Positions 15,058 through 36,176 of a DNA stretch of 64,000 nt are shown here, piece after piece. This DNA comes from Candidatus Phytoplasma melaleucae (GTDB lineage Bacteria > Bacillota_I > Bacilli_A > Acholeplasmatales > Acholeplasmataceae). The translations under genes were made by a program, and so were the position numbers. The notes under the pieces were generated by a model. It was not told the DNA's origin, made no database searches, and saw only the letters and a program-made list of their open reading frames with translations. How positions within the stretch are numbered: the first letter of the stretch is position 1; each line of letters begins with the position of its first letter. Location of the stretch: assembly GCF_030588185.1 (NCBI RefSeq), contig NZ_JAOSID010000002.1:30292-94291 (forward strand), in the 5' to 3' direction.

Positions 15058-15063
15058 ATCAAC

Positions 15064-15095: not shown

Positions 15096-15147
15096 TATAA
15101 TAATATTAGCATTTGTTAATCGCTATTCTTTATTCACTTTTATATTT

Positions 15148-15265: not shown

Positions 15266-15292
15266 TAGAAAAAGGGAGCTTTATAACAAAAT

Positions 15293-17827: not shown

Positions 17828-19193
17828 TAATATTAAATTGCCTTATTGCTTAGAAGCAGAACAATCTATTCTAGGAATTATTTTTTTAGAACCACAGCAA
17901 ATTATGAATGTAATAAACCACTTGGAAGTAACAGACTTTTTTAATATTAACCATCAATACATTTTTATGGCTATGCAAGATTTATTTTCCCAATCCAAAG
18001 CAATCGACTATTATTCGGTATACATACTATTACAAGAAAAAGATCATATCATAGAAGGAGGTCAAAACTACCTCATTCAACTAGGAGAAATAATTCCTTC
18101 TATTTACCATCTTAATACTTATATCACATTCGTACAAGAAGCTGCTATCAAAAGGAACATTATTCAAACAGCTTCTGCTATTGTGTATGAAGGACTTAAT
18201 AATCCTAACATCGATCCCCAACATTATTTAAATGTAGCAGAAGAGAAAATTTTTCAAATATCTAGCAAGCAAAAAACAAACAATTTTGTTAAAATCAAAA
18301 CTTTATTGGCAAAAATACAAGAAAAAGTAATTATTAATCATCAAGATAATAACATTATTGGATTGAGTACAGGCTATTATAATTTAGATGAGGTCACTTT
18401 GGGATTAAAACCAGAAGAATTAATAATTATTGCTGCCAGACCTTCAATGGGCAAAAGCAGCTTTATGATGAATTTAGCAGTTAAAATTGCACAGCAGAAT
18501 AAAAATACTCAAGCTGCTGTAGCTATTTTCAGCTTAGAAATGTCAAACGAACAACTAAGTTCGCGTATGTTAAGTGCCCAAAGCGAAATACCGCATAAAA
18601 ACATTCAACTAAGTATGCTAAACGAAAATCAATTATTGTTATTAAAAAATACCACTGCTAAATTAGAAAATTTAAACATTTATTTTGACGATTCAGTAGC
18701 TGTTAATATTTTAGACATTAGAACACAATGTCGAAAACTTAAATACCAAAATAAATTAGATATTGTTATTATTGATTATTTACAATTAATTAAAAAAAAC
18801 CAAAAAACAAACAACTATGGTTTTTATAACCGCCAGGAAGAAGTATCAGATATTTCTAAAAGTTTAAAACAAATGGCTAGAGAACTAAAAATACCTGTTA
18901 TAGCCTTATCACAGTTATCTAGAGAGGTTGAAAAAAGAGAAGAAAAAAGACCTATCTTATCTGATTTAAGAGATTCAGGAAGTATTGAACAAGATGCAGA
19001 CATTGTTATGTTTTTATACAGAAAACATTATTATTCAAAAGAACATCATAATCAATCTTTAATAGACTTAGGGCATACAGAACTAATTATAGCTAAAAAC
19101 CGCCAAGGAATAACTGGTGTTAAATATTTTAATTTCGACCTAAATTGTCTTCTTTTCCGAGAAACTAATAATTTTAATGATGAATTATTTTAA
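17820..19193 (+). CDS. dnaB: Replicative DNA helicase DnaB
   Basis: 457 residues. The N-terminal domain (LPYCLEAEQSILG) is followed by the RecA-like ATPase with Walker A ARPSMGKSSF (~206-215), FSLEMS, Walker B IVIIDYLQLI and the arginine-finger region near DLRDSGSIEQDAD. It unwinds DNA ahead of the replication fork. It overlaps the 3' end of gdpP-rplI by 8 bases, so translation is probably coupled. Confidence 0.97.
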   Translation: MNNNIKLPYCLEAEQSILGIIFLEPQQIMNVINHLEVTDFFNINHQYIFMAMQDLFSQSKAIDYYSVYILLQEKDHIIEGGQNYLIQLGEIIPSIYHLNTYITFVQEAAIKRNIIQTASAIVYEGLNNPNIDPQHYLNVAEEKIFQISSKQKTNNFVKIKTLLAKIQEKVIINHQDNNIIGLSTGYYNLDEVTLGLKPEELIIIAARPSMGKSSFMMNLAVKIAQQNKNTQAAVAIFSLEMSNEQLSSRMLSAQSEIPHKNIQLSMLNENQLLLLKNTTAKLENLNIYFDDSVAVNILDIRTQCRKLKYQNKLDIVIIDYLQLIKKNQKTNNYGFYNRQEEVSDISKSLKQMARELKIPVIALSQLSREVEKREEKRPILSDLRDSGSIEQDADIVMFLYRKHYYSKEHHNQSLIDLGHTELIIAKNRQGITGVKYFNFDLNCLLFRETNNFNDELF

Positions 19194-19216
19194 AAAAAAG
19201 GACAGAGAAATGTATA

Positions 19217-20293
19217 ATGTTTGATAAATTAGAATTAATAAAACAAAATTACTTAAAATGGCAAAAAAAAATTTTAGAAAATCAAGAAAATCTACAAAAT
19301 ATTGAATTGCTAAAACAAATGAGCAAAATTCAAAAAATTGTTTTTCTTTATGATGAATACATTGAACTAAAAAAAGAATTATCCCAGTTAGAAATAGAAT
19401 TAATACAAAGACAAAATGGTTATGATAATCAAATGATCAATTTAATAAAAGAAGAAAAAAAAAATTTAAACCAAAAAATAGATCAAAAAACAAATATATT
19501 AGAAAAAATACTATTCGCAGAAGAGGATGAAAATAATCAAAATGTCATTATAGAGATCAAAAGAGGTATTGGTGGCAGAGAAGCAAATTTATTTGTAGCT
19601 GATTTATTTCGAGCTTATATGAAACATGCTGAAAGTAAAAAATGGAAAACAGAAGTTATCTATCTTATGAATAGTTTTAAAAATGGAATTACATCAGTAG
19701 AATTCACAATTCATGGTAAAAATACTTATTCTTGGCTTAAATATGAATCTGGAATACATCGAGTACAACGTATACCAGAAACTGAAAAAAAAGGAAGAAT
19801 TCATACTTCTACAGCCAAAGTATTAGTTATACCCAACAAAAACGAACTCAAAATAGATATTAACTGGAATGATATTCGAACAGATACTTTTAATTCTAGT
19901 GGACCAGGAGGACAATCAGTGAACACCACCAAATCAGCTGTTCGACTCACCCATCTACCTACTGGAATTAGTGTTGCTTGCCAAATAGCTAAAAGTCAAC
20001 ATGAAAATAAAGATAAAGCTTTTAAACTATTAACAAATAAGATATACTACCAAAAAATTTCACAACAAAAAAGAGAAAAAAACGACATTAAAAAAAACTT
20101 TATTAGCAAAGCTGATAGAAGCGAAAAAATAAGAACATACGACTATTCTCACAATAAAATAATAGATCATAGAATTAATTTAACTATAAATAAACTGGAT
20201 ATGTTTATGGAAGGTCACATTGATTTAATAATAAAACCATTAACAGAAGAATTACAAAAACAAAAATTCCAAAAGTATTGCGAAACATTATGA
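19217..20293 (+). CDS. prfA: Peptide chain release factor 1
   Basis: 358 residues. The GGQ catalytic motif lies in SSGPGGQSVNTTKSAVRLTH (~228-247). The central domain has the RVQRIPETEKKGRIHTS segment, and the codon-recognition region belongs to RF1, which reads UAA/UAG. The usual partner prmC (GGQ methyltransferase) is not next to it; tsaC follows with a 16-base overlap. Confidence 0.96.
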   Translation: MFDKLELIKQNYLKWQKKILENQENLQNIELLKQMSKIQKIVFLYDEYIELKKELSQLEIELIQRQNGYDNQMINLIKEEKKNLNQKIDQKTNILEKILFAEEDENNQNVIIEIKRGIGGREANLFVADLFRAYMKHAESKKWKTEVIYLMNSFKNGITSVEFTIHGKNTYSWLKYESGIHRVQRIPETEKKGRIHTSTAKVLVIPNKNELKIDINWNDIRTDTFNSSGPGGQSVNTTKSAVRLTHLPTGISVACQIAKSQHENKDKAFKLLTNKIYYQKISQQKREKNDIKKNFISKADRSEKIRTYDYSHNKIIDHRINLTINKLDMFMEGHIDLIIKPLTEELQKQKFQKYCETL

Positions 20294-20859
20294 TAAAAAA
20301 AAATACGAAAACAAATATTATCATCTTTCCTACTGACACAGTTTATGGTATGGGAACTAGTATTTATGATCAAACTAGCTTGGAAAAAATTTATCAAATA
20401 AAAAAAAGAGATACCAAAAAACCAATGGCTGTTTTATTTAATTCTTTAGAACAAATGAAAAAAATAGCAATCATAAATAATCAAGTTAAAAAAATAGCTC
20501 TTTTTTTTTGGCCTGGAGCTTTAACTCTAATTGTTCAAACTCACCCATCATATTGCCAATTAACCAAAGAAAAAAAAATAGGAATCAGAATACCCAACCA
20601 TTTACTAACTTTGAAACTACTTCAAAAAAAAGGTCCTCTAAAAACTACTTCTGTTAATGAAAGCGGGTTCCCCCCTTTACAGAATTTAAAAGTACTTATA
20701 AACAAATACCAAAATCAAGTAGATTATATTTACCTTGATAATCAAAATTTATCACAAACACCTTCTACAGTGATAGATACAACTACTACTCCTTTTTGGC
20801 GCGTTTTAAGAAAAGGGGCAATTACATTATCTATGATTCGAAAAATATTAATTAAATAA
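20278..20859 (+). CDS. tsaC: L-threonylcarbamoyladenylate synthase (intact copy)
   Basis: 193 residues. The YrdC/Sua5 fold has PTDTVYGMG (14-22), the KKRDTKKPMAVLF segment (~41-53), FWPGALTLIV (~79) and the TSVNESG region. It makes threonylcarbamoyl-AMP for the t6A modification of ANN-decoding tRNAs. It overlaps prfA by 16 bases and runs 12 bases into the convergent holA. Its 3' part, from 20481, belongs to the 1740-bp duplicated segment; this is the only complete copy. Confidence 0.93.
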   Translation: MRNIMIKKNTKTNIIIFPTDTVYGMGTSIYDQTSLEKIYQIKKRDTKKPMAVLFNSLEQMKKIAIINNQVKKIALFFWPGALTLIVQTHPSYCQLTKEKKIGIRIPNHLLTLKLLQKKGPLKTTSVNESGFPPLQNLKVLINKYQNQVDYIYLDNQNLSQTPSTVIDTTTTPFWRVLRKGAITLSMIRKILIK

Positions 20860-21855
20860 TACCGTTTTAGCCATGAATAAAAATCTTATATCAGGGGCTT
20901 TAATCCCTAATTGCATTTCAAAATACAATTCGAAAAAAAATAAAAACAAAGAAACAACCCTTTCTATATTGAAAGAACGTAATTCTTTAGCTAAAAAAAA
21001 AGTTTTAACAGAAGAATACTTTAACAACGAGGAAATTTGCTTTTGACTTATATTTTGGCGTAATAATCTTTCAGCGACAATCATTTCTTGTAATTTTTTT
21101 AAAATTCGGTACAAAAACAAAAAAATATCTTTTTTTTGGCTAACTGTTTTTTGGAAAAAGGCAAAATCACTTATAGAACTTTTTTCGCTAATTATAAATT
21201 CTATTAAAGTAAGAACACTTGTATCTTCTGACGCATAAGTCAATTGTTCAATAACAGATTCATCATGAATCTTTTTTTTTGGTAAATGATATAACTTAAT
21301 TTTATTAATTTCCTCACTTAACAAGAACAAATCCCCGTTAGTTTTTTGTATTAATCGATAAATAAATTTATCTTTAATGGTTTCATTGATAAAAAAACCT
21401 TCTTGCGTAAAAGTGTTTAAAATATAAGAAAATAAATCATCTTTGCGATGAATAGACTTAATTTTTAATACTTGAGCAAATCTTAATAATTTGTTTTTCA
21501 CCAGAGCAAAAAAATGATTATTTTCATCTAATGTAACATACATAATAATGTTCTGATCAGATGATTTATTTAAATAATTTACTAAAAAAGAAAAATAATC
21601 AACTTTTTTTAACTCAAATAACAAAGAAATATTTTCTATAAAAAAAACTTTTTTTTGGGAAAAAAAATTGCCGGTAGATAACAATTCTTTCATTCGAGCC
21701 ATAATATCAAAATAATTATGAGATTCGAATTTACAATAGTAAAAATAATAATTATTTTTATGGCAAAATTCTACTAAATAATTCTTTTCCCTTTCTAAAA
21801 AAAATAACTGTGAATAACATAATAAACTTAAATAAACCACTCTTTTAACCGCCAC
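20848..21855 (-). CDS. holA: DNA polymerase III delta subunit, copy 1
   Basis: 335 residues. It is a HolA-type clamp-loader subunit: N-terminal Rossmann-like ATPase fold without a P-loop, IMYVTLDENNHF region, then LSEEINKIKLY and a helical C-terminal collar domain. It opens the DnaN clamp for loading. The start is GTG at 21855; an overlapping ATG in another frame (at 21857) is not used. The protein is identical to the copy at 30374-31381. In this copy the upstream xerC is truncated, so its promoter context differs. Confidence 0.88.
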   Translation of the reverse strand: MAVKRVVYLSLLCYSQLFFLEREKNYLVEFCHKNNYYFYYCKFESHNYFDIMARMKELLSTGNFFSQKKVFFIENISLLFELKKVDYFSFLVNYLNKSSDQNIIMYVTLDENNHFFALVKNKLLRFAQVLKIKSIHRKDDLFSYILNTFTQEGFFINETIKDKFIYRLIQKTNGDLFLLSEEINKIKLYHLPKKKIHDESVIEQLTYASEDTSVLTLIEFIISEKSSISDFAFFQKTVSQKKDIFLFLYRILKKLQEMIVAERLLRQNISQKQISSLLKYSSVKTFFLAKELRSFNIERVVSLFLFFFELYFEMQLGIKAPDIRFLFMAKTVLFN

Positions 21856-21910
21856 ATATTAGTATTTTAGATTTTTTTTTAATCTTTTTAATTTATAAAA
21901 TCATTATAAA

Positions 21911-22220
21911 TTATTTTTTTATCCTTATATGTTTTTTAGGCATACTTTTCTTAAAACCATCTTTTACTATAGGAATAGCAGCACGAGGATGATATTTATA
22001 ATATATTTCTTTTAAACGTTTTTGACTAACATGTGTATAAATCTGAGTAGTCGAAATATCCTCATGCCCTAAAATACTTTGTAAAGCTCTTAAATCTATA
22101 CCATTTTCTAATAAATGTGTTGCAAATGAATGTCTTAAAGTATGAGGAGAATATTTCTGTTTTAAACCAGATAATTTTATCTTTTGTTTAAAAATCTTAT
22201 AACAACCCTGTCTAGATAAA
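21911..22220 (-). pseudogene. xerC: Truncated xerC: C-terminal ~100 codons only
   Basis: The sequence matches the 3' part of the intact xerC at 31437-32399, from the [10 protein letters not shown] segment through [12 protein letters not shown] and the tyrosine region to the stop. It breaks at 22220/22221, the edge of the direct repeat. Beyond it the frame continues for only about 10 codons of unrelated sequence before a stop. It lacks the N-terminal DNA-binding domain and the first catalytic Arg, so it is non-functional. Confidence 0.92.
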
Positions 22221-22468
22221 GCGATTATAATATCTTGTTTGGTTAATTTATTATCTTATTTATAATAACTAAAATCATTGATTTCTTTTTTCTTGGTGGG
22301 ATAATTCTTCGAAATTTTTGGGGTTCTTGAATTTCTTTGAAGGTGGATGATTATTTATTTCTTGGGGTTTTGTTAAGTGTTATTTTCATTTTTTTCAACG
22401 CCTACTCCATTATTTCCTTGATTTTTTCAGCATAAATGCTAATTTGATTGCAAAAATATATGTCTAAT

Positions 22469-22508
22469 AAAATCATAAAATCATAAAATCATAAAATCAT
22501 AAAATCAT
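22469..22508 (+). repeat. Five tandem copies of AAAATCAT
   Basis: Five exact, head-to-tail copies of the 8-base unit lie in gene-free sequence. The array is a likely slippage hotspot. Confidence 0.9.
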
Positions 22509-22797
22509 AAATAAAACTAAAATAAAATATTTTGGCAACAAACTCATAATTACTTTTCTTTTTGATTCCATATTACAAATATTTTACTTTTCTACAAATA
22601 TTAAAAGGTTTAAAAATTCCCCATTAAAATATTACGGTAATAAATATATTTTTATGCAACATTTATATTTGCGACATTTTATTATGTGCATTTTTTCAAT
22701 AATTTTGCAACCTTTAATTTTATTTGGAATTGAAATATTTGATAAAAATTTATTTTCTGTTTAATTTCAATAGTTTTATATTACAATACAAGTATAG

Positions 22798-22866
22798 TTA
22801 TTTAAATGTTTTAAGTCTTGGTTTAAAATATGATTATTTAAATATTTTGAGTCTTGGCTTTAAACT
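22798..22866 (+). repeat. Imperfect 36-base tandem duplication
   Basis: Two near-identical stretches (TTATTTAAATGTTTTAAGTC and TTATTTAAATATTTTGAGTC, each followed by TTGG) start at 22798 and 22834. The period is a multiple of three, which gives a spurious repetitive reading frame. Confidence 0.75.
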
Positions 22867-23842
22867 CTTTGTTTATCTTAGAATAAAAATATTCAAAAGC
22901 AACTACTAATTTTATAAGTTATTTATTCACAAATTAAATCACATATATAGCAAAATAAGTAAGATACTAAATTAGTTATATTTATTTTTTATTTCGATTT
23001 ATTATATACAATTTAATACAATTGATATATTTCTATTTTGTAATGACTTTAAAACTTAATACCAAAAACTATTTTTACAATTGTATTTTATAAAATAAGA
23101 CCTTATTTATATAATAATTTATATAGAAATCCCCAATATGTTTAAGTATTAATTCGATCGGTATAATAAGTGTTTGCAATGTTTTGGGAAAATAATAAGA
23201 ATATTTTATAAATTTATTGTTGTGTTAATGATATCTTTCATTTATTATTAGCCATAATTTTATCATTTTATGCAATCCACCCAAAAACTAATTGAGAGTT
23301 AATTATAATTTAGATTTATTAAATTATTACAAGTTTTTATATTTTTTATACCCTAAGCTATATTTATATCATTTTTTTAATAAGTTTGGTATTAAATTAT
23401 TGTATTTTAAATATTTTCCTTCACCGCTTTTGTATTTTTATTAAGCATAATAAGCATCTTTAAAATTATAGTTTATTTTTCATAGTTTAATATGAAAAAA
23501 ATTTGAAAAATCAAATCATAAGTAATAAATTTTTTTTAAAAATATAAAATAAAAAGATTTTTACTGTCAAGCTATAATAGACCAATAACAAATTAGCTCT
23601 CATTATAATTAAATATTTTTGCTAAATTATTGCCAAATGTATAGGTATAACTATATCAAAATTGCTATTTTTAATGATGGATTTTATAAATAAATCCCAA
23701 AACACTAATTTATAATTACAAATTTTTAGATATTTTGTAAAACTTTGATTTCGCAAAATTGAATTTTTGCAAATCCAAAGAATAGTTCATTTTAAATTAT
23801 TTTTAAATTAATTCAGAAAAGCAAAAAAAAGGAGTCTAAATT

Positions 23843-25003
23843 ATGGATTTTTTTATCAAATATAAAAAAAAAATAATGATTTTTATTTTAGTAACAATAA
23901 CAACACTAATTTTATCTATTCCTTTTTTATCTTTGACAAAAACCAAAAATGTTAAAACCGTTTCAAAAGATCTACAAATAGTAACGACTACTACTATGTT
24001 AAAAGATTTAGTCAAGCATTTAGTTGGTAATGTGGCAGAAGAAGAACAAAACGAATATCAAAAAATTGAAGGCATTCAAGTTGATTCTTTGATGGGAGTA
24101 GGAATTGATCCGCACAATTATAAAACCAAATTATCAGATCGCAAAAAAATTAAAGAAGCTGATTTAGTTGTGATTAATGGACTACATTTAGAAGCTAAAA
24201 TGGCAGAAGCTTTTCCACTTTTGACACATAATTCCTTTACGGTAGTACAGTTAGATGAAACACATACTAAAGTTATAAATCAAAAAGGTGATGAGAAGGA
24301 ACACATTCAAGAAAAAGATATTAAACGAGACGAAGATACTAACGGGCCAGATCCTCATATTTGGTTTGATATAGATCTTTGGATTAAAGTTTTACAACAA
24401 TTAAAATATAAATTAGAAACAGTATTGGAGAAAAAAATTAAAGAAAAAGATTCACGTTTTAACTCAGAGGATATTGGAAAATTAAAAGAAAATTGTGAAA
24501 CATATGCATGCAAATTAAAATTATTAGATAAATATGTAGACCAGAAAATTAAAGTATTAAAACAACAATTTTCTTCTCAAGGTAGAACATTTATTTTAGT
24601 TACTGCTCATGATGCTTTTTCTTATTTAGCTAGAAAATATAATTTTCAATTAAGCCCCATTCAAGGAATTTCTACTCAAACAGAAGCCAGTATCACCAAT
24701 ATTGAAGAGTTAGCAAATGAACTTGTTATTAACCAAGTAAAAGCTATTTTTGTAGAAAGTGCTTTTCCAGAAGGAACACTGGATTCTCTTAAAGAATCTG
24801 TAAAAAGTAAAGGTTATAATATTAAAAAAAGCGATGAAGAATTATACGCTGATGCTTTGGGGTCAGAAAATGAAGAACCAATAGAATTTGAAGGAGATCA
24901 AGATACATACGGAAACTCCAAACCCACAAAATATAAACATTCCACCTATATTGGAGCTTTATTACATAACATTAACACAATAGAAAAAGAATTAAAACAA
25001 TAA
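23843..25003 (+). CDS. znuA: Zn/Mn ABC transporter substrate-binding protein
   Basis: 386 residues. An N-terminal hydrophobic segment (~11-30) serves as signal or anchor; no lipobox Cys is seen. Cluster A-I metal-binding features are present: VTTTTMLKDL, GVGIDPHNYK (first His), an acidic and His-containing loop (~150-175), GPDPHIWFD (second His), TAHDAFSYLA (third His) and a late acidic ligand. It captures divalent metal (Zn or Mn; family members differ) outside the cell. AAAAGGAG precedes the ATG. It is the first gene of a four-gene operon with an ATPase and two permeases. Confidence 0.92.
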   Translation: MDFFIKYKKKIMIFILVTITTLILSIPFLSLTKTKNVKTVSKDLQIVTTTTMLKDLVKHLVGNVAEEEQNEYQKIEGIQVDSLMGVGIDPHNYKTKLSDRKKIKEADLVVINGLHLEAKMAEAFPLLTHNSFTVVQLDETHTKVINQKGDEKEHIQEKDIKRDEDTNGPDPHIWFDIDLWIKVLQQLKYKLETVLEKKIKEKDSRFNSEDIGKLKENCETYACKLKLLDKYVDQKIKVLKQQFSSQGRTFILVTAHDAFSYLARKYNFQLSPIQGISTQTEASITNIEELANELVINQVKAIFVESAFPEGTLDSLKESVKSKGYNIKKSDEELYADALGSENEEPIEFEGDQDTYGNSKPTKYKHSTYIGALLHNINTIEKELKQ

Positions 25004-25033
25004 TAACAATAACAAAGAAATAAGGAGATTATA

Positions 25034-25795
25034 ATGAAAAAAGAAATAGCCATTAAAATTAGAGATCTAACTGTAGCTTATCATCTAAAACCAGTTTTGT
25101 GGGATATTGATATAGATATTTATCAAAGCTCTTTAACAGCTATTTTGGGGCCTAATGGTGCTGGAAAATCAACTTTAATTAAAACTATTTTAGAATTAAT
25201 TCCCAAAGTGTCTGGAGAAGTTTTATTTTATAATCAAAAATATGGGCAAGTAAGAAAAAAAATTGCCTATGTACCACAAAGAAATTCAGTTGATTGGGAT
25301 TTCCCTACTACTGTTTTTGATGTTGTTTTAATGGGTCGTTACGGACATTTAGGATGGTTTAAAAAACCAACTGTTAAAGATAAAGAAATAGTAATGCAAT
25401 CTTTAGAAAAAACAGGAATTCAAAATCTTAAGGACCGTCAAATATCTGAACTTTCAGGCGGCCAACAACAAAGAATTTTTTTAGCTCGCGCCTTAGCTCA
25501 ACAAGGAGATATTTATTTTATGGACGAGCCGTTTCAAGGGGTTGATATCCAAACAGAAAAAAAAATTATCCAAGTTTTAAAAGATTTGCAAAAAGAAAAT
25601 AAAACCATTATTGTAGTACACCATGATTTAGAAACAGTAACTCAATATTTTGATCATGTAGTTTTAATAAACGTACAAAAAATTGCAAGCGGTACTATGG
25701 ATGCAGTTTTTAATCAAACTAATTTAACTAAAACTTTTCAAAATAAACAATTAAAAAAAGATATTCATAATTTTGTAAACTTAAAAGAAAACTAA
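25034..25795 (+). CDS. znuC: Metal ABC transporter ATP-binding protein
   Basis: 253 residues. It has Walker A GPNGAGKST (~38-46), a Q-loop in AYVPQRNSVDWDFP, the signature LSGGQQQR (~141), Walker B IYFMDEP and the H-loop VVHHD. The VPQR...DWDFP stretch is typical of the manganese/zinc importer ATPases (MntB/ZnuC). It powers import with the two permeases downstream. AAGGAG stands before the ATG, 30 bases after znuA. Confidence 0.95.
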   Translation: MKKEIAIKIRDLTVAYHLKPVLWDIDIDIYQSSLTAILGPNGAGKSTLIKTILELIPKVSGEVLFYNQKYGQVRKKIAYVPQRNSVDWDFPTTVFDVVLMGRYGHLGWFKKPTVKDKEIVMQSLEKTGIQNLKDRQISELSGGQQQRIFLARALAQQGDIYFMDEPFQGVDIQTEKKIIQVLKDLQKENKTIIVVHHDLETVTQYFDHVVLINVQKIASGTMDAVFNQTNLTKTFQNKQLKKDIHNFVNLKEN

Positions 25796-25854
25796 ATAAA
25801 AAGAATTAAATTAAATATAAATAAAATAACTAAACACATAAGAAAGGATTAAAT

Positions 25855-26919
25855 ATGTTTGTTTTAGAATTTAATTATACTGTTGTTAAAGTGCTTTTAG
25901 CAGCTAGTTTTTTAGGGTTTACATCAGGTATTTTAGGTGTTTTTATTATCCTGAAAAAACAAGCCTTAATTGGCGATGCTCTTTCACATACTGCTTTGCC
26001 AGGAATTGCCTTAGTTTATCTTTTTGTTCGCAGTACAGATATTTGGGTTTTGTGGTTAGGTGCTATTCTTGCTTCGTTTGTTACTTTGTTTTTGATGGAA
26101 CTTATTAAAAAATATTCTAAAATTAAATCTGATACAGTCTTATCGTTAGTGCTTGCCTCTTTTTTTGGTTTAGGTAACGTTTTAATTGCCATTGCTCAAA
26201 ATACTGGTGAGGATAATAAAATAGCTACTTTGGAAAAATTTATTTTAGGGCAAATTGCTTTGGTAACTAAACTAGATATGATTTCTACTGGCATTATGGC
26301 CTTAATTACTTTAGTAGTGGTGGCTAGCTTGTGGAAAGAAGTTAAAATCTATATTTTTGATGATAAGTTTGCCCAAAGTATCGGGTTTAACACTAAAATT
26401 ATGACTTTTATTCTCAATTTCTTATTAATTGGCGTAATAGTTATTAGTTTAAAAATTATTGGTATTATTTTGACAAGTGCCTTCTTAATTATGCCAGGAA
26501 TAATTGCCCGTCAATTTAGTGATAGATTTGTTACTAATGTTATTATTGCTTCCATTGTTACTTTCTTTTCTAGTTCGATTGGAGTTTTTATAAGTAATAG
26601 TGTAGAAGATATGCCAACAGGACCAATTATTATTGTTATTACTGCTTTATTTATTGCTATTTCTTTATTATTTTCTCCTAAATATGGAGTTATTAGTAGA
26701 TATATGCAAAAAATTAAATATCAAAAAAAGATTAAAAAATTTCGCCAACTTATTCATCTTTATTATGAACAAGAAGAAATTCAAAGCCTGAGTTTGCCAA
26801 TAATTCAAATAGAAAGTTTTTTATGGAAGGAAAAATATTTAATGTTGCAAAATCAAAAACCCCAATTAACACCTAAAGGAATTAAATTAGTTGAAAATTT
26901 AATTGATGGTGTTGTTTAA
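25855..26919 (+). CDS. znuB: Metal ABC transporter permease 1 with C-terminal extension
   Basis: 354 residues. The ABC-3 family membrane domain (about 8 helices, residues ~8-285) includes GDALSHTALPGIA, the family's cytoplasmic coupling signature. The last ~60 residues are soluble, with FLWKEKYL and LTPKGIKL segments that resemble a winged-helix fold; such tails occur in other Mn/Zn permeases. It shares the operon and overlaps the next permease by one base (TAATG), so the two are coupled. The two permeases are paralogues and probably form a heterodimer. Confidence 0.92.
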   Translation: MFVLEFNYTVVKVLLAASFLGFTSGILGVFIILKKQALIGDALSHTALPGIALVYLFVRSTDIWVLWLGAILASFVTLFLMELIKKYSKIKSDTVLSLVLASFFGLGNVLIAIAQNTGEDNKIATLEKFILGQIALVTKLDMISTGIMALITLVVVASLWKEVKIYIFDDKFAQSIGFNTKIMTFILNFLLIGVIVISLKIIGIILTSAFLIMPGIIARQFSDRFVTNVIIASIVTFFSSSIGVFISNSVEDMPTGPIIIVITALFIAISLLFSPKYGVISRYMQKIKYQKKIKKFRQLIHLYYEQEEIQSLSLPIIQIESFLWKEKYLMLQNQKPQLTPKGIKLVENLIDGVV

Positions 26920-28013
26920 TGATAAGTTTTATTAATAATGTTGTTAGCGGCTTTGAATTAGATGTTTTTTTAGTTATTTTATTTTGTTCTTTGACTTTGG
27001 CTAGTTTAGGAGTTTTTTTAGTATTGAAAAAATCTTCTATGGTGGTTGATGCGATGAGTCATAGTGTTTTATTAGGCATTGTTATAGCTTTTTTAGTAGT
27101 TAAAAATATCAATTCTCCTCTTTTAATTATGGGGGCTGCTTTAGTAGGTGTACTTACAGCTTATATGGTAGAACTTTTAGGCAAGAATTCTAAAGTTACT
27201 AAAGATGCTTCTATTGGGATTGTTTTTACTTTTTTCTTTTCGGTAGCTATTATTTTGATAAGTCTTTATACAAGACATGAACATCTTGATACTGATGCTG
27301 TTTTTTTAGGCAATATTGAGCTGACCCACCTTAACCAACTCAAAAAAATTATTCCTCTTTTATGTATTAATTTGCTGTTCGTTTTTTTCTTTTATAAAGA
27401 ATTAAAAAACTACATTTTTGATCCTACTCTAGCTGTCATCCTCGGATTTTCGATTAATTTAATTAATTATTTATTAATGTTTTTAGTTTCTATGACAGCT
27501 GTTATTTCTTTTGATGTAGTTGGTTCTATTATGGTAATTTCTTGTATGATTGGACCTGCCGCCATATCTCTTTTAGTTACCAAAAACTTATGTAATAGTT
27601 TTTTACTTTCTTTATGGATTGCATTTGTTGATTCTAGTATTGGTTATTATTTGGCAATTGGACTTAATTTGCCAGTATCAGGGCTAATTGCTTTTATGAA
27701 TTTAGTTAGCTTTTTGCTCTTTTTCTTCTTAGCTCCTAAAACTGGAATTGTTGCTAAAATAATTAAAAATAATTTGCAAAGAAAAGAATTTATGATTATT
27801 TCTTTACTAATGCATCTTAAAAATAACCAAAACCAATTACAAAAAAACCATTATCAAGAGATTTATAAAGATCTAAAATGGCCTTTATTTCGTTATAATA
27901 AATGTCTTAATAATGCTTTAAAAAAAGGCTATATCCGAATAAAGAATAATCAAGTAATATTAAATACTTCAGGGAAATATGTTTTAGAAGAAAAAATTGC
28001 TCTTTGGATTTAA
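26919..28013 (+). CDS. znuB2: Metal ABC transporter permease 2 with C-terminal extension
   Basis: 364 residues. This is an ABC-3 family permease with VVDAMSHSVLLGIV as coupling signature, about 8 membrane helices, and a C-terminal soluble tail (RKEFMIISLLMHLKNNQ ... KKGYIRIKNNQVILNTSGK) that looks like a winged helix. It overlaps permease 1 by one base. It ends the operon; a terminator lies 115 bases later. Confidence 0.92.
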   Translation: MISFINNVVSGFELDVFLVILFCSLTLASLGVFLVLKKSSMVVDAMSHSVLLGIVIAFLVVKNINSPLLIMGAALVGVLTAYMVELLGKNSKVTKDASIGIVFTFFFSVAIILISLYTRHEHLDTDAVFLGNIELTHLNQLKKIIPLLCINLLFVFFFYKELKNYIFDPTLAVILGFSINLINYLLMFLVSMTAVISFDVVGSIMVISCMIGPAAISLLVTKNLCNSFLLSLWIAFVDSSIGYYLAIGLNLPVSGLIAFMNLVSFLLFFFLAPKTGIVAKIIKNNLQRKEFMIISLLMHLKNNQNQLQKNHYQEIYKDLKWPLFRYNKCLNNALKKGYIRIKNNQVILNTSGKYVLEEKIALWI

Positions 28014-28127
28014 ATAATCAAATCCATCAACATGCTTTAATAAAGTGGGTTTTTATTTCATTTATAATAAGTTTTATAATATTTAAACAATATTCAAACA
28101 CTCGATTATTATATAAAAGTTATTTTG

Positions 28128-28160
28128 GGACCTTTTTAAAAAAGAGGTCCTATTTTTTTT
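28128..28160 (+). terminator. Intrinsic terminator of the metal ABC operon
   Basis: GGACCT (28128-28133) pairs with AGGTCC (28145-28150), followed by TA and eight Ts. An 80-codon frame across 28004-28246 reads through this hairpin and is not considered a gene. Confidence 0.85.
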
Positions 28161-28334
28161 ATGAATGGGTTCGATGTTTTGTATATAAAATACTTACCCC
28201 ATTCAATAACCAAAAACAAAGTAATTATTATTTTAAAATTTTTTAACATCGGTAAAAAGTTTTTAAGATCCTTAAAGCCTAAAAAGAATTGAAAAAATAA
28301 CCTTTTTCCCTCTACTTGAAAGATTTAATTTACA

Positions 28335-28478
28335 ATGAAAAATAAAATTAACAAAGTTATATTTAAATTATTAATTTTGATCTGTACATTTATTTTATGA
28401 ATATTAATATGTTTTTATATTACAAAAATAATAAAAATAGAAATTATTAATCACTATAAAGAAACCAATAAAAACTAA
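28335..28478 (+). pseudogene. Broken tandem copy of the small membrane-protein gene
   Basis: Starts MKNKINKVIFKLLILICTFI, identical over 20 residues to the intact gene 230 bases downstream. A TGA at 28398-28400 replaces the TTA (Leu) codon of that gene. The frame then stays open to a TAA at 28476 but diverges. The upstream leader (GATTTAATTTACAATG) is also duplicated. Confidence 0.8.
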
Positions 28479-28564
28479 TTTATCTTAAAAAATAAATATT
28501 ATTGATAAATGTAAAAAAATGTTGAAAAACAAAAAAATTTAAAACGAGAAGGATTTAATTTAAA

Positions 28565-28885
28565 ATGAAAAATAAAATTAACAAAGTTATATTTAAATTA
28601 TTGATTTTGATTTGTACATTTATTTTATTAACATTAACATGTATTTTATTAAATAAAATAATAAACAATAACAAAAAAATAACACAATCAAATAATATAG
28701 TAGAAACACAAAATGCTAATGTACCTCACAAAAACAAAAATATTTTAAAAAAAATGAAAAATAATAAAATATTTCAAAAAATAAAAAATAATAAACATAA
28801 AATATCTAAATATTTTATAACAAGAGATATTCATATTGTAGGTTTAGTAACAGGATTAATAACTGGATTACTTTCTTTGGCTTAG
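28565..28885 (+). CDS. Small two-anchor membrane protein of unknown function (106 aa)
   Basis: 106 residues. An N-terminal hydrophobic helix (~7-32) leads into a Lys/Asn-rich soluble part (~35-85, with repeated KMKNNKIFQKIKNNK units) and a C-terminal hydrophobic segment (HIVGLVTGLITGLLSLA). The N-terminal signal resembles signal anchors of phytoplasma surface or secreted proteins, but it does not match the SVM signal well. An AAGGA precedes the ATG. It is a tandem paralogue of the broken copy at 28335 and is followed by a terminator. Function unknown. Confidence 0.65.
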   Translation: MKNKINKVIFKLLILICTFILLTLTCILLNKIINNNKKITQSNNIVETQNANVPHKNKNILKKMKNNKIFQKIKNNKHKISKYFITRDIHIVGLVTGLITGLLSLA

Positions 28886-28913
28886 TCAATCTATAATCTA
28901 GTAGTTTTTAAAT

Positions 28914-28953
28914 AAAAACCAAATTATTTATTAATAAATAATTTGGTTTTTTT
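28914..28953. terminator. Bidirectional terminator (38-base palindrome)
   Basis: A perfect palindrome (28914-28951), A-rich on the left and T-rich on the right, follows the 106-residue gene. Confidence 0.75.
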
Positions 28954-28982
28954 ACTTTTATAATAATGTCATTTTATTTTTT

Positions 28983-29087
28983 TTAAAAATTAATTTTTTT
29001 AATAAAAAGGAAAATACAAGCTCCTAAAACCGAAATAAACATTATAAATGTAGTAATAAATAAAGTTTTATTCGATGTTTTTTTAAT
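28983..29087 (-). pseudogene. Small membrane-protein ORF without a standard start
   Basis: On the minus strand a frame encodes about 34 residues ending LGACIFLFIKKINF, with one clear membrane helix. AGAGAAGAGG lies just upstream, but the only nearby starts are three consecutive ATT codons. It could be a remnant, or a real gene with a rare AUU start. Confidence 0.25.
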
Positions 29088-29236
29088 AATAATATACCTC
29101 TTCTCTCCGTTTATATTTTATTAATATGATATGCAAAATAATTTAATTAATTGGTTATTTTATGTTTTCTTATATCATTTTTATTTGTTTGATTATTACT
29201 GTTATAAATAATATTATAATTATGCGGCATAACATT

Positions 29237-29480
29237 TTAGTGCATAGATAATTGTATTTGGGATGTATATATACGATGAATATTGCCATCTACAAATAAT
29301 GAATTTAGATCATCTGTTGTATTATCAAATTTTTCATTATTTTCTTTTATCATTTTTTTATAAAGTCTCCACCTTTATCATCGATATTACCTGTAATTTT
29401 GATATTTGAAATAAGGTGCATATCAGAATATGTTTGATCTTGAATAAAAAATAATACACTTTTCTAAGGTATTTTTTGGT
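29237..29480 (-). pseudogene. Frameshifted remnant of an unknown gene
   Basis: Two minus-strand frames continue one another. The first reads FIQDQTYSDMHLISNIKITG and then NIDDKGGDFIKK. The second starts at an ATG at 29353 and runs 38 codons (NNEKFDNTTDDLNSLFVDG). The composition is protein-like, but stops interrupt it. I do not recognise the family. Confidence 0.45.
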
Positions 29481-29599
29481 TTTCAAGAATCATAAATTTG
29501 CTTTTTTTTATAAAATTAAGTTTTACTAAGTAAAGTAGCGTTTAATAAGGATTTAGAAGTGTAGAAATAATTACTTACCATTTGAAGAAGAAAACTTAT

Positions 29600-29989
29600 T
29601 TTTATAATAACGTTCACATACCAGATAATAGAAGTTTCAGGAACTAAAACACCTAGAAATAATAGCATACAAAAAGAATTAACCCAATATGCTAAAACAT
29701 TAAAAAATACTATTAATAAAAAAAAGAATCTTCCGATGAAGAAAGAAATAATGTTTTACAATTAATAAATTTAAATTCTAAATTAAATTAAAAGAAAATA
29801 AGCTTCAAAAAGTTTTATTTCCGTTTTATTAAAACCTTCCCAAACAAGGTGGGAATCTTTTAAAAGTTGGGTTACTTTTACAAATAAAGAAAACTCCAAA
29901 TCTTTAAAAGATGTTTATCAATCTATACTAAATGATTTACAAAAAAAACAAAGAATTACAATCAGATTTGAAGAAATTAAAAAATATAA
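29600..29989 (+). pseudogene. Gene debris on the plus strand
   Basis: Overlapping short frames look coding but are broken: IIEVSGTKTPRNNSIQKELT in one, and SWVTFTNKENSKSLKDVYQS plus ILNDLQKKQR in another. They suggest one hydrophilic gene with several frameshifts. Unrecognised. It abuts the second copy of the direct repeat. Confidence 0.4.
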
Positions 29990-30385
29990 ATGATGAAAAA
30001 GAACATTCAAGTTAAAAAAATAGCTCTTTTTTTTTGGCCTGGAGCTTTAACTCTAATTGTTCAAACTCACCCATCATATTGCCAATTAACCAAAGAAAAA
30101 AAAATAGGAATCAGAATACCCAACCATTTACTAACTTTGAAACTACTTCAAAAAAAAGGTCCTCTAAAAACTACTTCTGTTAATGAAAGCGGGTTCCCCC
30201 CTTTACAGAATTTAAAAGTACTTATAAACAAATACCAAAATCAAGTAGATTATATTTACCTTGATAATCAAAATTTATCACAAACACCTTCTACAGTGAT
30301 AGATACAACTACTACTCCTTTTTGGCGCGTTTTAAGAAAAGGGGCAATTACATTATCTATGATTCGAAAAATATTAATTAAATAA
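29990..30385 (+). pseudogene. tsaC: Truncated tsaC (copy 2), fused to 5 foreign codons
   Basis: After MMKKNI-Q the frame enters the duplicated tsaC at the repeat edge (30007) and runs to the normal stop. It lacks the first ~67 residues, including the PTDTVYG nucleotide/threonine-binding region, so it cannot be active. It remains an open frame of 131 codons. Confidence 0.9.
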
Positions 30386-31746
30386 TACCGTTTTAGCCAT
30401 GAATAAAAATCTTATATCAGGGGCTTTAATCCCTAATTGCATTTCAAAATACAATTCGAAAAAAAATAAAAACAAAGAAACAACCCTTTCTATATTGAAA
30501 GAACGTAATTCTTTAGCTAAAAAAAAAGTTTTAACAGAAGAATACTTTAACAACGAGGAAATTTGCTTTTGACTTATATTTTGGCGTAATAATCTTTCAG
30601 CGACAATCATTTCTTGTAATTTTTTTAAAATTCGGTACAAAAACAAAAAAATATCTTTTTTTTGGCTAACTGTTTTTTGGAAAAAGGCAAAATCACTTAT
30701 AGAACTTTTTTCGCTAATTATAAATTCTATTAAAGTAAGAACACTTGTATCTTCTGACGCATAAGTCAATTGTTCAATAACAGATTCATCATGAATCTTT
30801 TTTTTTGGTAAATGATATAACTTAATTTTATTAATTTCCTCACTTAACAAGAACAAATCCCCGTTAGTTTTTTGTATTAATCGATAAATAAATTTATCTT
30901 TAATGGTTTCATTGATAAAAAAACCTTCTTGCGTAAAAGTGTTTAAAATATAAGAAAATAAATCATCTTTGCGATGAATAGACTTAATTTTTAATACTTG
31001 AGCAAATCTTAATAATTTGTTTTTCACCAGAGCAAAAAAATGATTATTTTCATCTAATGTAACATACATAATAATGTTCTGATCAGATGATTTATTTAAA
31101 TAATTTACTAAAAAAGAAAAATAATCAACTTTTTTTAACTCAAATAACAAAGAAATATTTTCTATAAAAAAAACTTTTTTTTGGGAAAAAAAATTGCCGG
31201 TAGATAACAATTCTTTCATTCGAGCCATAATATCAAAATAATTATGAGATTCGAATTTACAATAGTAAAAATAATAATTATTTTTATGGCAAAATTCTAC
31301 TAAATAATTCTTTTCCCTTTCTAAAAAAAATAACTGTGAATAACATAATAAACTTAAATAAACCACTCTTTTAACCGCCACATATTAGTATTTTAGATTT
31401 TTTTTTAATCTTTTTAATTTATAAAATCATTATAAATTATTTTTTTATCCTTATATGTTTTTTAGGCATACTTTTCTTAAAACCATCTTTTACTATAGGA
31501 ATAGCAGCACGAGGATGATATTTATAATATATTTCTTTTAAACGTTTTTGACTAACATGTGTATAAATCTGAGTAGTCGAAATATCCTCATGCCCTAAAA
31601 TACTTTGTAAAGCTCTTAAATCTATACCATTTTCTAATAAATGTGTTGCAAATGAATGTCTTAAAGTATGAGGAGAATATTTCTGTTTTAAACCAGATAA
31701 TTTTATCTTTTGTTTAAAAATCTTATAACAACCCTGTCTAGATAAA
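30007..31746 (+). repeat. 1740-bp direct repeat, copy 2
   Basis: Second copy of 20481-22220. The left edge cuts tsaC; the right edge continues into an intact xerC, so this side carries the original xerC junction and copy 1 carries the original tsaC junction. Confidence 0.95.
30374..31381 (-). CDS. holA: DNA polymerase III delta subunit, copy 2
   Basis: 335 residues, identical to the protein at 20848-21855. Here it lies 55 bases downstream of the intact xerC on the same strand, so this is the copy in its apparent ancestral upstream context. Having two complete copies of a clamp-loader subunit gene is unusual for a reduced genome. Confidence 0.88.
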   Translation of the reverse strand: MAVKRVVYLSLLCYSQLFFLEREKNYLVEFCHKNNYYFYYCKFESHNYFDIMARMKELLSTGNFFSQKKVFFIENISLLFELKKVDYFSFLVNYLNKSSDQNIIMYVTLDENNHFFALVKNKLLRFAQVLKIKSIHRKDDLFSYILNTFTQEGFFINETIKDKFIYRLIQKTNGDLFLLSEEINKIKLYHLPKKKIHDESVIEQLTYASEDTSVLTLIEFIISEKSSISDFAFFQKTVSQKKDIFLFLYRILKKLQEMIVAERLLRQNISQKQISSLLKYSSVKTFFLAKELRSFNIERVVSLFLFFFELYFEMQLGIKAPDIRFLFMAKTVLFN

Positions 31747-32399
31747 CGCCCTCCTTTATAATTCACAAAAACGAAACAATTAGATGTTTTACACAAAAGA
31801 AAATCACGAGAACATTTAAGATATAATTCAATAACTTGAGCAGAATATTTAGAAATAGGGACCATTCTTTCTTTGCTGCTTTTTCCTGTAACCAAAACAT
31901 ACATCTCTTCTAAATGTAACCGATCTAAAGTAAGATTTAAAAGTTCTGATATTCTTAACCCCGACCCATACATTAATTCAAATATAGCCTGATTCCGTAA
32001 ACTAATATAAGAATCATTTTGGTTAATTTGTGCTAAAAAACGAAAAGTTTCTTTCAAAGATAAAACAGTGGGTAAGTTTTTATTTATTTTAGGCATTTTC
32101 AAAGACAAAGCGATATTATAAACAACTTGGTTTTCTATTAAGAAAAAATCATGTAATTTTTTAATAACAACAATTTTCCTAGCTAAAGTTTTGCTGCTTA
32201 ATTTTTTTTCAGTTGTAATAAATTCTAAAAAAAGAAATATGTGATTTGGACGTATTTCGCACGGTTCTTTTAATTTTAAATATTTGTCTATAAATTCCAA
32301 ATATTGTCTCACATCAGTCAAGTAAGATATTATAGTATTTAAAGATAGAATCAATTCATGTTTTAGGTATAATTCGAACGCTTGTATAATATATTTCAT
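31437..32399 (-). CDS. xerC: XerC/XerD-type tyrosine recombinase
   Basis: 320 residues. It has an N-terminal SAM-like DNA-binding domain (~1-95) and the catalytic residues in order: Arg in GSGLRISELL (~148), Lys in VTGKSSKERM (~172), HTLRHS (~240), GHEDIS (~266) and the nucleophile Tyr in TTQIYTHVS (~275). A basic tail [13 protein letters not shown] follows. It probably resolves chromosome dimers or acts in element recombination. The weak ribosome binding site leaves the start moderately supported. Its 3' third is duplicated at 21911-22220. Confidence 0.93.
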   Translation of the reverse strand: MKYIIQAFELYLKHELILSLNTIISYLTDVRQYLEFIDKYLKLKEPCEIRPNHIFLFLEFITTEKKLSSKTLARKIVVIKKLHDFFLIENQVVYNIALSLKMPKINKNLPTVLSLKETFRFLAQINQNDSYISLRNQAIFELMYGSGLRISELLNLTLDRLHLEEMYVLVTGKSSKERMVPISKYSAQVIELYLKCSRDFLLCKTSNCFVFVNYKGGRLSRQGCYKIFKQKIKLSGLKQKYSPHTLRHSFATHLLENGIDLRALQSILGHEDISTTQIYTHVSQKRLKEIYYKYHPRAAIPIVKDGFKKSMPKKHIRIKK

Positions 32400-32462
32400 A
32401 GATAAAATTTTAACTTTCTAAAAGATAAACCCAAAAATCTATTTAGATGAATTAGTTTTAAT

Positions 32463-33245
32463 TTAATTTTTTTTAAGCGTTAAATGATTTTGTTTATTTC
32501 TATTAGTAGTGAAATACATAAAAAAAGTAGATAAAGGAATTTTAATAAAGTTAGTCAGAAAAATAGATTCCCAGTAAAATTTTTTCGTCGTAAAATAAAT
32601 CAATAAAGTAGCTATAACAGAAATCGAATAATTGAACAAACAAATCATTAATGAAATATCTTTTTGTTTATAAACATTTAAATATTTAGAAATAATATCT
32701 ATACCCCCAGTAGAACCCCCTATTCTAATAGTAATACCACCAATAATTCCTCCTAAAATAGCAGAAACTATTATTCTCACAAAAGAAGACCAAAACCCAC
32801 CATCCATATCAAATAAACCAAAAAAATTTTTCATTTTGTTTAAATATAAACTATTATTATTGTTAATAGAAGCAGTTAACAAAATTAAAAAAACGAAAAT
32901 AGAAATACTGTTAATAAGAGTACTTATAGTAAACTTATAACTTAATTTAGGAAAAGAAATAAAAATAAATAAAAATGCGTTTATGATTATATAGAAAAAA
33001 GCAGAAAATAAACCAACAAACAAAGAATTATTTTTTAAAAATATAAAATTCGCTTTTAATATTTTAGCAATAGCATCACCAATACCATGTATACCTGTCG
33101 CATATGAATTAACTTTATAATTGCCACTATTGAAAAAAACATCCGAAAGAGAATAAATAAAACATAAAAATATATTGATAAAAATAGTTTTCACATGTAA
33201 TTTATTTTTAGGCCCAAAAAGAGAATTATCTCTATTATTTTTCAT
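32463..33245 (-). CDS. YitT-family membrane protein
   Basis: 260 residues, about five hydrophobic segments. It has the family's GGIIGGITIRIGGSTGGIDI loop (~162-181) and the following KYLNVYKQKDIS segment. It lacks most of the C-terminal DUF2179 domain of longer YitT proteins. The function of the family is unknown. GGAGA lies before the ATG. Confidence 0.82.
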   Translation of the reverse strand: MKNNRDNSLFGPKNKLHVKTIFINIFLCFIYSLSDVFFNSGNYKVNSYATGIHGIGDAIAKILKANFIFLKNNSLFVGLFSAFFYIIINAFLFIFISFPKLSYKFTISTLINSISIFVFLILLTASINNNNSLYLNKMKNFFGLFDMDGGFWSSFVRIIVSAILGGIIGGITIRIGGSTGGIDIISKYLNVYKQKDISLMICLFNYSISVIATLLIYFTTKKFYWESIFLTNFIKIPLSTFFMYFTTNRNKQNHLTLKKN

Positions 33246-33443
33246 CTGTAATCTCCGCTTTTTCTACATTTTTTTTTCATTAAAATATAATTACAACTAA
33301 ATAACAGGAATAATTCAATTTACAAATAAAAATAATTAAAAAAAATTGAATGATAATAAGAATTTTTAAAGTTTGAATTTAATATATTTTAATATATCTT
33401 TATTTTCATTTTTTTAGTTCATAGATTTAAATTTTAATAACTT

Positions 33444-34472
33444 TTACCAACCGATACCTAATTTTTTTTTCACTTCATCTAACTTATTTTGGGCGATTAT
33501 ACTTGATTTTTCCGCACTTTTACTAAGAATATTAGCCAAAATAGAACTTTGACGAAAATAATGAAATTGATTTTGAATAACGGAAAGATGTTCTATAACT
33601 AAATCAGCTACTTTTATTTTCAAATTCTGATAAGAATAACCTTGAAAATAAGCTTCCGTTTTATTAAGATCCCAATCTCTAAAAGCGGAGTAAATTTTTA
33701 ATAAATTAGATAATCCTGGTTTTTTTTCTGTATCATATTTAATTTCGTTGTCAGAATCAGTTACTGATTGCATAATTTTTTTTCTGATAAGATTTAAATC
33801 TTCAGATAAAAAGATGCAACCTTTTTCTAATGATTGATCAATCAAATGATCACTTTTATTCATTTTTTTAATTGGATTAATCAAAGAATTAATAGTATGT
33901 CCTATTTTTAAAAAGTCAGGGACAATAAAAGTATTACCATACAAAGAATTAAAACGAATAGCTAAAGAGCGAACTAATTCTAGATGTTGTTTTTGATCTT
34001 GTCCAACAACTACAATATCAGCATCATAAAGCAAAATATCTGCTGCCATTAAAATGGGATAAGTGAATAAAGAAGTTCTTACATTTGGTTCAGAGTTATA
34101 TTTTTTTTTTTCTTTAAATTGAATCATACGGCTTAACTCTCCTAAATAAGAAGTACATTCCATTATATAACTTAAATAGGTATGTTGAGGCACCTCTGAT
34201 TGAATAAATAAATTAGTTATAGAAAGATCTAATCCTGCTGCAAGACATAAAGCTGCTGTGTCCTTAATAACTTGTTTAAGTAGAGATGGAGTTTGAAAAA
34301 AAGTTAGAGAATGTAGATCAGCAATAAAAATATAAAAATCATATTTATTATAAAACTTTTTTTGCAAAAGAACTAAAGGTCTAATAACCCCCAGAAGATT
34401 TCCTAAAGTTAATTTACCAGTGGGTTTAATACCGGTGATTATTTTTTTTTTCAACTTGGATTGCATAATCAT
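33444..34472 (-). CDS. trpS: Tryptophanyl-tRNA synthetase
   Basis: 342 residues. The class I HIGH-like motif appears as TGIKPTGKLTLGNLLG (~14-29), the MAADILLYDADIV tryptophan pocket (~150) and the KMSKS-like KMNKSDH (~203). It charges tRNA-Trp. A second ATG at 34466 is also possible; an AGAGAGGTGG sequence lies upstream. No T-box motif is seen. Confidence 0.95.
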   Translation of the reverse strand: MIMQSKLKKKIITGIKPTGKLTLGNLLGVIRPLVLLQKKFYNKYDFYIFIADLHSLTFFQTPSLLKQVIKDTAALCLAAGLDLSITNLFIQSEVPQHTYLSYIMECTSYLGELSRMIQFKEKKKYNSEPNVRTSLFTYPILMAADILLYDADIVVVGQDQKQHLELVRSLAIRFNSLYGNTFIVPDFLKIGHTINSLINPIKKMNKSDHLIDQSLEKGCIFLSEDLNLIRKKIMQSVTDSDNEIKYDTEKKPGLSNLLKIYSAFRDWDLNKTEAYFQGYSYQNLKIKVADLVIEHLSVIQNQFHYFRQSSILANILSKSAEKSSIIAQNKLDEVKKKLGIGW

Positions 34473-34594
34473 CTGATAATTTAACTACCACCTCTCTAAT
34501 TTTATCCTACGAACTATAAACACTATAAACTCAAACATAAAAATTATATTATTTGCTAAAAAAATTATTATGTAAGACTGGCTTCATAATAAAA

Positions 34595-35467: not shown

Positions 35468-35820
35468 TTTTATTTCTTTTTAAAAAATCATAACCTCACA
35501 AAGATATTTTCATAAACATTTCTTGTTATAGAACAATCTGAAATTTACTAAGCATAAAATGCTTTTCAATGCAAAAAGTATAATAGTTTATTTGCAAAAT
35601 ATTATGTACACTTTATAAGTTTATATACACATTTAATATAATTAAAAACTTTATTTTACTAATATTACTAATAACTATAAAACTTATAAATAAAAACAAA
35701 GGCCTGATTAATAATTTGTATTTTGGGATACTATATACATATTATTATTTTACCAGATGATAAAGATATTTTTTAATTATTTTTAACTACTACACATATC
35801 AAAGTTTGCTGAGTTAATTT

Positions 35821-35905
35821 ACCCTATCTTTTGCAAAAAGCAGCGACGACTTACTAACATTCACTGTTGACTTACAATCTTGTTTCTATTTAACTGTTTA
35901 TAATT
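35821..35905 (+). repeat. 85-bp direct repeat, left of oriC
   Basis: The stretch from ACCCTATCTTTTGC to TGTTTATAATT matches 36607-36691 at 84 of 85 positions. It is richer in GC (AGCAGCGACGAC) than its surroundings. The two copies bracket the DnaA-box cluster. Between trpS-side gene end (35468) and here I see no gene. Confidence 0.95.
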
Positions 35906-35992
35906 CTTTTGTACTACATTTGGCAATTTCTTTAAATTAAAGGCTGCTTGAAATCGTCAATGATTGTGAATTAAAATTAGTAAATTTTGATA

Positions 35993-36069
35993 TTTTTATT
36001 CACACTAATTACAAAGTTATTCACAATGTTATAAATTGTGAATAACTTTGTAATTAGTGTGAATAAAAA
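35993..36069. repeat. 77-base inverted repeat carrying four DnaA boxes
   Basis: Arms of 35 bases flank a 7-base centre (GTTATAA, 36028-36034) with perfect complementarity. Each arm contains two DnaA boxes, giving a symmetric four-box array. Confidence 0.95.
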
Positions 36070-36176
36070 AAATAATTCTATTTAAAAACACAGTACTTCA
36101 GATCATTTTTTGTTTGTTTATAAATCACATTTTTTGTGAACAAAAAATGTGAATAACTTTTTTTTTAAAGTTATTC

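Follow-up and report, generated by a model that had tools for sequence, protein, structure and literature searches.

The stretch of DNA analysed here (the window, 64,000 nucleotides) covers positions 30292-94291 of contig C12 in the draft genome of Candidatus Phytoplasma melaleucae. It contains an exact direct repeat of 1,740 bp, segment A, whose copies at 20481-22220 and 30007-31746 enclose a block of foreign origin, B, at 22221-30006. Block B measures 7,786 bp and the unit A+B 9,526 bp. A four-gene operon in B encodes a predicted zinc or manganese importer of the ATP-binding cassette (ABC) type. The draft genome (504,639 bp in 24 contigs, 83% complete) falls in one genus with the phytoplasmas but stands apart from all 40 relatives searched, in which its HolA is matched at 43% at best. 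Four genomes of the aster-yellows clade, G008, G009, G016 (Ca. P. tritici) and OY-M, were compared with B. The features of the locus are as follows (aa, amino acids):

19217-20293, + strand: prfA, left flank (family search)
20278-20859, + strand: tsaC, complete (TIGR00057)
20481-22220: repeat A, copy 1, with the 3' part of tsaC, holA and the 3' part of xer (100% identical to 30007-31746)
20848-21855, - strand: holA, first copy (TIGR01128)
21911-22220, - strand: xer fragment, C-terminal part only (repeat copy of 31437-31746)
22221-30006: block B, a foreign piece of chromosome, likely from the aster-yellows clade or a lineage sister to it (colinear donor match)
22221-23424: decayed donor flank, including the beginning of a truncated donor gene, which in OY-M is a 309-aa frame (donor match)
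23843-25003, + strand: metal-binding lipoprotein, ZnuA family (PF01297; 82-85% aa identity to G008, G009 and G016)
25034-25795, + strand: ABC ATPase of the metal importer (PF00005; 94-96% aa identity to the same three)
25855-26919, + strand: ABC-3 permease 1 (PF00950; 90-94% aa identity to the same three)
26919-28013, + strand: ABC-3 permease 2 (PF00950; 90-92% aa identity to the same three)
28103-29438: stretch of about 1.3 kb without colinear donor match (only short weak matches elsewhere)
29439-30006: decayed right donor flank, its end lying within a donor gene that OY-M carries as a 306-aa frame (70-82% identity in pieces of more than 100 bp)
29990-30385, + strand: tsaC fragment fused to the final bases of B, a 131-aa frame (open reading frame)
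30007-31746: repeat A, copy 2 (identical to copy 1)
30374-31381, - strand: holA, second copy (repeat of the first)
31437-32399, - strand: xer tyrosine recombinase, complete (PF00589; NF001399)

The A-B-A layout and the duplication of holA claimed by the initial annotation are present in the assembly: the two copies of A show 0 differences, and holA is complete in both. The length of the repeat excludes a chance origin, and the similarity of the copies ends abruptly on either side. Segment A begins inside tsaC and ends inside the gene of an Xer tyrosine recombinase, with the whole of holA between. The frames bear out the intact/broken pattern: the complete tsaC belongs to copy 1 alone and the complete xer to copy 2 alone. 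The calls of TsaC, HolA and the metal ABC operon are supported by their families, while the name XerC given to the recombinase seems better replaced by Xer, as the XerD profile (300 bits) outscores that of XerC (280 bits) and neither passes its own cut-off. No RNA family reached the gathering threshold in 19000-34000.

Block B runs colinear with chromosomal DNA of aster-yellows-type phytoplasmas, and the limits of this match fall at the borders of the repeat. On the left, the donor match starts at 22217 in all four genomes (repeat border 22220/22221); on the right, it stops at 30006 in two of them (G008 and OY-M) and 22 bp short, at 29984, in the other two (repeat border 30006/30007). The foreign/native border is therefore sharp at the insertion border in four of four genomes on the left and in two of four on the right. 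The DNA identity to G008 is 75% over 22217-23424, 90% over 23434-28102, 80% over 29439-29558 and 70% over 29673-30006; the sampled relatives are about 89% identical over 23434-28102. For the left flank (22221-23424), the identity is 73-75% in three of the four donors, and in G009 this flank lies within a longer match of 84%. Both ends of B lie within genes that are open in OY-M, those of the 309-aa and 306-aa frames, so B is an arbitrary slice of a donor chromosome and not a unit element.

The importer proteins are 82-96% identical to those of G008, G009 and G016. Outside the aster-yellows clade, the best identities are 42% for ZnuA (three genomes compared), 80% for the ATPase (partial pieces), 60% for permease 1 and 61% for permease 2. 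In a tree of the two permeases (22 rows), the window groups with G008, G009 and G016 at 100/100 support, in conflict with the recipient lineage. A constraint holding the window with 14 rows outside the groups G008/G009/G016 and G006/G007/G015/G023 was rejected by the approximately unbiased test (p-AU 6.5e-63); this set was chosen after the trees had been seen, and three of its rows (G003, G018 and G021) are absent from the TsaC+HolA tree described below. The synonymous divergence between the window and three donors (0.19-0.33) exceeds that among the donors (0.12-0.20), which makes a sister lineage of the sampled donors the likely source. The ratio of nonsynonymous to synonymous divergence of the importer against the donors, 0.12-0.34 over the whole split, suggests purifying selection for most of the time since the split. 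On these comparisons, B is foreign and was likely acquired horizontally from the aster-yellows clade or its sister lineage.

Some details of B may be noted here. In OY-M, the two permeases form a single frame of 719 aa (L071:8936-11095), while they are separate in the window. The stretch lacking a colinear donor match includes a frame of 106 aa (28565-28885); its N-terminus is hydrophobic, and it has no family match. A partial second copy of the start of this frame, 88% identical at the DNA level, is located 230 bp upstream (28318-28435), and the frame is followed by a perfect hairpin with 19-bp arms and a T run (28914-28951).

The repeat and its surroundings have a different affinity. The recipient is only distantly similar to the aster-yellows clade in PrfA (61-64%, partial), TsaC (50-51%) and HolA (27-28%), and no Xer match was found in the holA loci of that clade; a derivation of A from the sampled donors was rejected on the last two results. 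Among the matches listed, the window regions 1-20000 and 32400-52000 are 65-74% identical to G008 and G016 in pieces of at least 300 bp; shorter flank pieces score higher, up to 100% over 24 bp. In the TsaC+HolA tree (20 rows), a branch with 100/100 support parts the window from G008, G009 and G016, and the window is nearest to G011 and G022 with support of only 87/94. The uninterrupted order prfA-tsaC-holA-xer, which the initial annotation had expected in relatives, was indeed found: prfA/tsaC, the repeat region and xer occur together on 4 kb in 13 of 23 same-genus loci. The other ten, including the aster-yellows loci, have no xer DNA match, and one of them (L022) is cut by a contig end. By these comparisons, repeat A and its flanks belong to the recipient lineage; that B is foreign while A is native had been missed by the initial annotation. 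As a separate observation, genome G019 has two equal-scoring holA copies in opposite orientation, about 118 kb apart (C1:331540-332463 and 450124-451047); 7% contamination is listed for that assembly.

A single intact ZnuA was detected in the window genome, namely that of B. A second, native ZnuA piece contains six stops and the matching permease piece five; the native zinc/manganese importer operon, at C12:28348-29879 (in L010) outside the window, is decayed. The DNA match of this remnant to B skips from the start of the ATPase to the end of permease 2, as would follow from an internal deletion. The permease remnant is about equidistant (66-71% DNA identity) from the 20 rows it matched out of 22, with no match to G020 and G024, as expected for the recipient's own copy. 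As the native operon survives only as a stop-riddled remnant, the importer of B likely replaced the recipient's broken one, and would then be the working copy. In xenologous gene displacement, a foreign orthologous operon is present and the native one is broken. The window genome agrees with this in having an intact foreign operon and a broken native one, but the foreign copy is at a new site and the native remnant is still visible. Among 15 same-genus relatives, ZnuA is intact in 13, broken in G012 and not found in G014 (78% complete); G012 has a broken ZnuA and a broken permease 2 on contig C22, and no intact copy was found there.

The two joins between A and B are different. At the left join, the bases TAAA (22217-22220, + strand) are common to host and donors, a microhomology of 4 bp. 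At the right join, no homology is visible in the host-donor alignments. The recA frame is open in the window genome; Ku was not detected there, which leaves no sign of classical end joining. For comparison, recA is broken in G008, G007 and G014 and was not found in G001 and G009; two of these five belong to the aster-yellows clade.

We consider it fairly probable that B is a border-to-border slice of a donor chromosome, acquired horizontally and inserted by illegitimate joining at two points 1,740 bp apart, with duplication of the tsaC-holA-xer stretch. The slice of an aster-yellows-type phytoplasma chromosome would have arrived by horizontal transfer and been joined illegitimately to two points on the replicating recipient chromosome; it may have been delivered by transformation, by co-infection with cell fusion or by a mobile unit. 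Two sister chromosomes may have been linked by B, one at each of its ends, or a replication fork may have left its template for B and resumed 1,740 bp upstream. In both variants, the two joins would be made in one event, and the native tsaC-holA-xer stretch would be duplicated around B as A-B-A. One complete tsaC, holA and xer would remain afterwards, which would explain why the event was tolerated. Later on, B could be lost, or the 9,526-bp unit amplified, through RecA; excision by recombination between the copies, as suggested by the initial annotation, is plausible with an open recA frame present. A tandem duplication formed first, with B inserted later, was rejected since B abuts both A copies exactly.

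A related process is described in PMC3784515, where merodiploids arise by transformation in Streptococcus pneumoniae, Acinetobacter and Pseudomonas stutzeri: the incoming DNA bridges sister chromosomes and gives a direct duplication around a novel join. The same source mentions a small duplication that lacks flanking repeats. Like this homology-facilitated illegitimate recombination, the present case combines a novel join with recipient DNA that is directly duplicated on either side of it (PMC3784515). In that system, however, the incoming DNA is partly homologous to the recipient, while neither donor flank of B resembles A; no extended homology on one side was seen in the sampled donor flanks, the true donor being unsampled.

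The initial annotation had proposed instead that a circular molecule carrying A and B integrated by one homologous crossover within A. This fits the geometry, since it yields exactly L-A-B-A-R (L and R being the flanks), and the open recA frame is in keeping with it. It is not required, as B joins A without extended homology. With A native and B foreign, two illegitimate joins, in the same or a very close strain, would have been needed to make the circle in the first place; direct insertion is simpler, because the circle needs the same two joins plus a crossover. In Campbell-type plasmid integration, a native segment is left as a direct repeat on both sides of the insert. B is bracketed in this manner too, but no replicon was found in the scanned frames, and the B-A joins without homology would call for an earlier chimeric circle. 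No replication gene was detected among the larger frames of A+B (small frames were unscanned). Plasmid cargo was rejected: among 72,556 plasmid records, two matched with at most 8% of B covered at about 70% identity, a second search matched 1,262 records, each under 60%, with no close relative, and no match to viral contigs was confirmed. Integration of a circle is for these reasons regarded as rather unlikely.

Potential mobile units (PMUs) and other transposons were rejected: no transposase and no PMU genes of the dnaB/dnaG type were found in the larger block frames (small frames were unscanned), and there is no inverted repeat pair at the two borders of B. A tRNA-linked integrative element was also rejected, as the window contains no tRNA gene and xer, the one integrase-family gene found here, is native and interrupted by the repeat.

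Several points weigh against the insertion of B as proposed above, and the first of them concern the assembly. Of its 48 contig ends, 32 are readable and 16 read N. Nine pairs of readable ends overlap head to tail, eight by 127 bp and one by 125 bp, and another five pairs have a 127-bp start in common. The draft is very likely a k=127 de Bruijn graph assembly of short reads, and the warning of a misassembly in the initial annotation was well placed. Both A copies may be one graph edge used twice, and near-identical copies may have been merged; that the copies are identical is a statement about the assembly and was not measured. Such a graph forces or favours equal copies, so their equality is poor evidence of recency, and the claim of a recent event based on it is not established. 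In the k=127 graph, L-A-B-A-R has the same k-mers as an uninterrupted chromosome L-A-R accompanied by a circle A-B, and the assembly leaves the chromosomal tandem form and the equality of the A copies unproven.

The second arrangement would be a separate A+B circle of 9,526 bp in all or some of the cells, the assembler having walked the loop once. SPAdes, if it was the assembler used here, would walk such a loop by coverage. The single 16S gene found is on a contig of 5,286 bp, one end of which leads to two other contigs, so a longer repeat stayed unresolved in this assembly. On the other hand, a circle with no replication gene in its scanned frames would disappear, unless an integrated copy kept releasing it by excision. 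Mainly because no replicon was found among these frames, the chromosomal form is preferred and the separate circle appears quite improbable.

The remaining points concern the borders. The real donor sequence is unsampled, and the microhomology could exceed the observed 4 and 0 bp. The right border is the weaker one, with short, gappy matches that stop 22 bp early in two of four genomes. The flanks of B are about 70-75% identical to the donors, about as expected of neutral DNA over the whole split. If this decay followed entry, equal A copies would need gene conversion or a collapse in the graph; otherwise, the ends of B decayed before the transfer. Finally, chimeric ends do exist in this dataset, though the one observed is shorter than k and at a contig end. 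It belongs to contig C6 (L009; 4,590 bp, 37% G+C over the first 1,500 bp), whose bases 1-117 are identical to permease 2 (27475-27591, reverse). The rest, about 4.5 kb, is unrelated DNA, for which a plant origin is an impression only; a Pfam scan of five C6 frames gave no match.

With C6, the draft includes at least one contig that is foreign or chimeric, which lends some weight to the view that the locus itself is a library or assembly chimera, or DNA of a co-infecting aster-yellows-type phytoplasma that was misjoined. When a 19-kb donor neighbourhood was compared with the window genome, donor-like DNA was present only in B and in a 110-bp piece of C6. The remaining matches above 100 bits have 65-79% identity and are found at other places, for the most part on different contigs; a few short ones, of 27-62 bp, are 80-96% identical. 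Since the donor's neighbour genes outside B match only as diverged relatives, wholesale contamination is unlikely. The finding of one 16S gene, the broken native importer, and the possession by B of its own 1.3-kb stretch and its own decay, unlike the sampled donors, also speak against a chimera, and two independent joins 1,740 bp apart in half a megabase would be improbable. An artefact of this kind is considered very unlikely.

In the accessible parts of the literature, gene transfer in phytoplasmas is treated in terms of PMUs and effectors (PMC12633904, PMC3633829, PMC10210161). In PMU transfer, DNA passes from one phytoplasma group to a distant one, and strains of Ca. P. asteris are among the partners (PMC3633829, PMC10210161). 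B resembles it in connecting distant groups and in the decay of flanking genes around a cargo that is kept (PMC3633829, PMC10210161). It differs in having no PMU markers in the scanned frames, ends within ordinary donor genes, and a nutrient importer in place of effectors. No report of a transferred zinc or manganese importer in phytoplasmas was found in the accessible portions of a largely non-subscription literature that included PMC12633904, PMC3633829, PMC10210161 and PMC13245659. A nutrient importer on a chromosomal slice, in which no mobile-element features were found, likely crossed between distant lineages here and took over from a broken copy. If true, this would show concretely how an uncultured genome that is shrinking can repair its losses. 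With slightly more doubt than belief, we propose that phytoplasmas can rescue a decayed essential nutrient importer by a random slice of the chromosome of a co-infecting distant phytoplasma, with no mobile unit involved. Such an insertion would duplicate 1.7 kb of host DNA, spare every host gene and leave a 9.5-kb cassette that RecA can excise or amplify. As the joins are preserved, the mechanism of insertion can be tested directly; from the repeat, excision and a change in dosage are to be expected.

Some other features of the window are located outside the repeated region. At 15293-17827, a single frame of 844 aa joins a GdpP-type cyclic-di-AMP phosphodiesterase with ribosomal protein L9, both L9 domains being C-terminal. 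An 87-bp direct repeat (99% identical, copies 786 bp apart) is found at 35819-35905 and 36605-36691, and a near-perfect palindrome of about 77 bp (35993-36069) lies between its copies. Another direct repeat, of 199 bp and 90% identical, has its copies 10.3 kb apart at 48554-48752 and 58900-59096.

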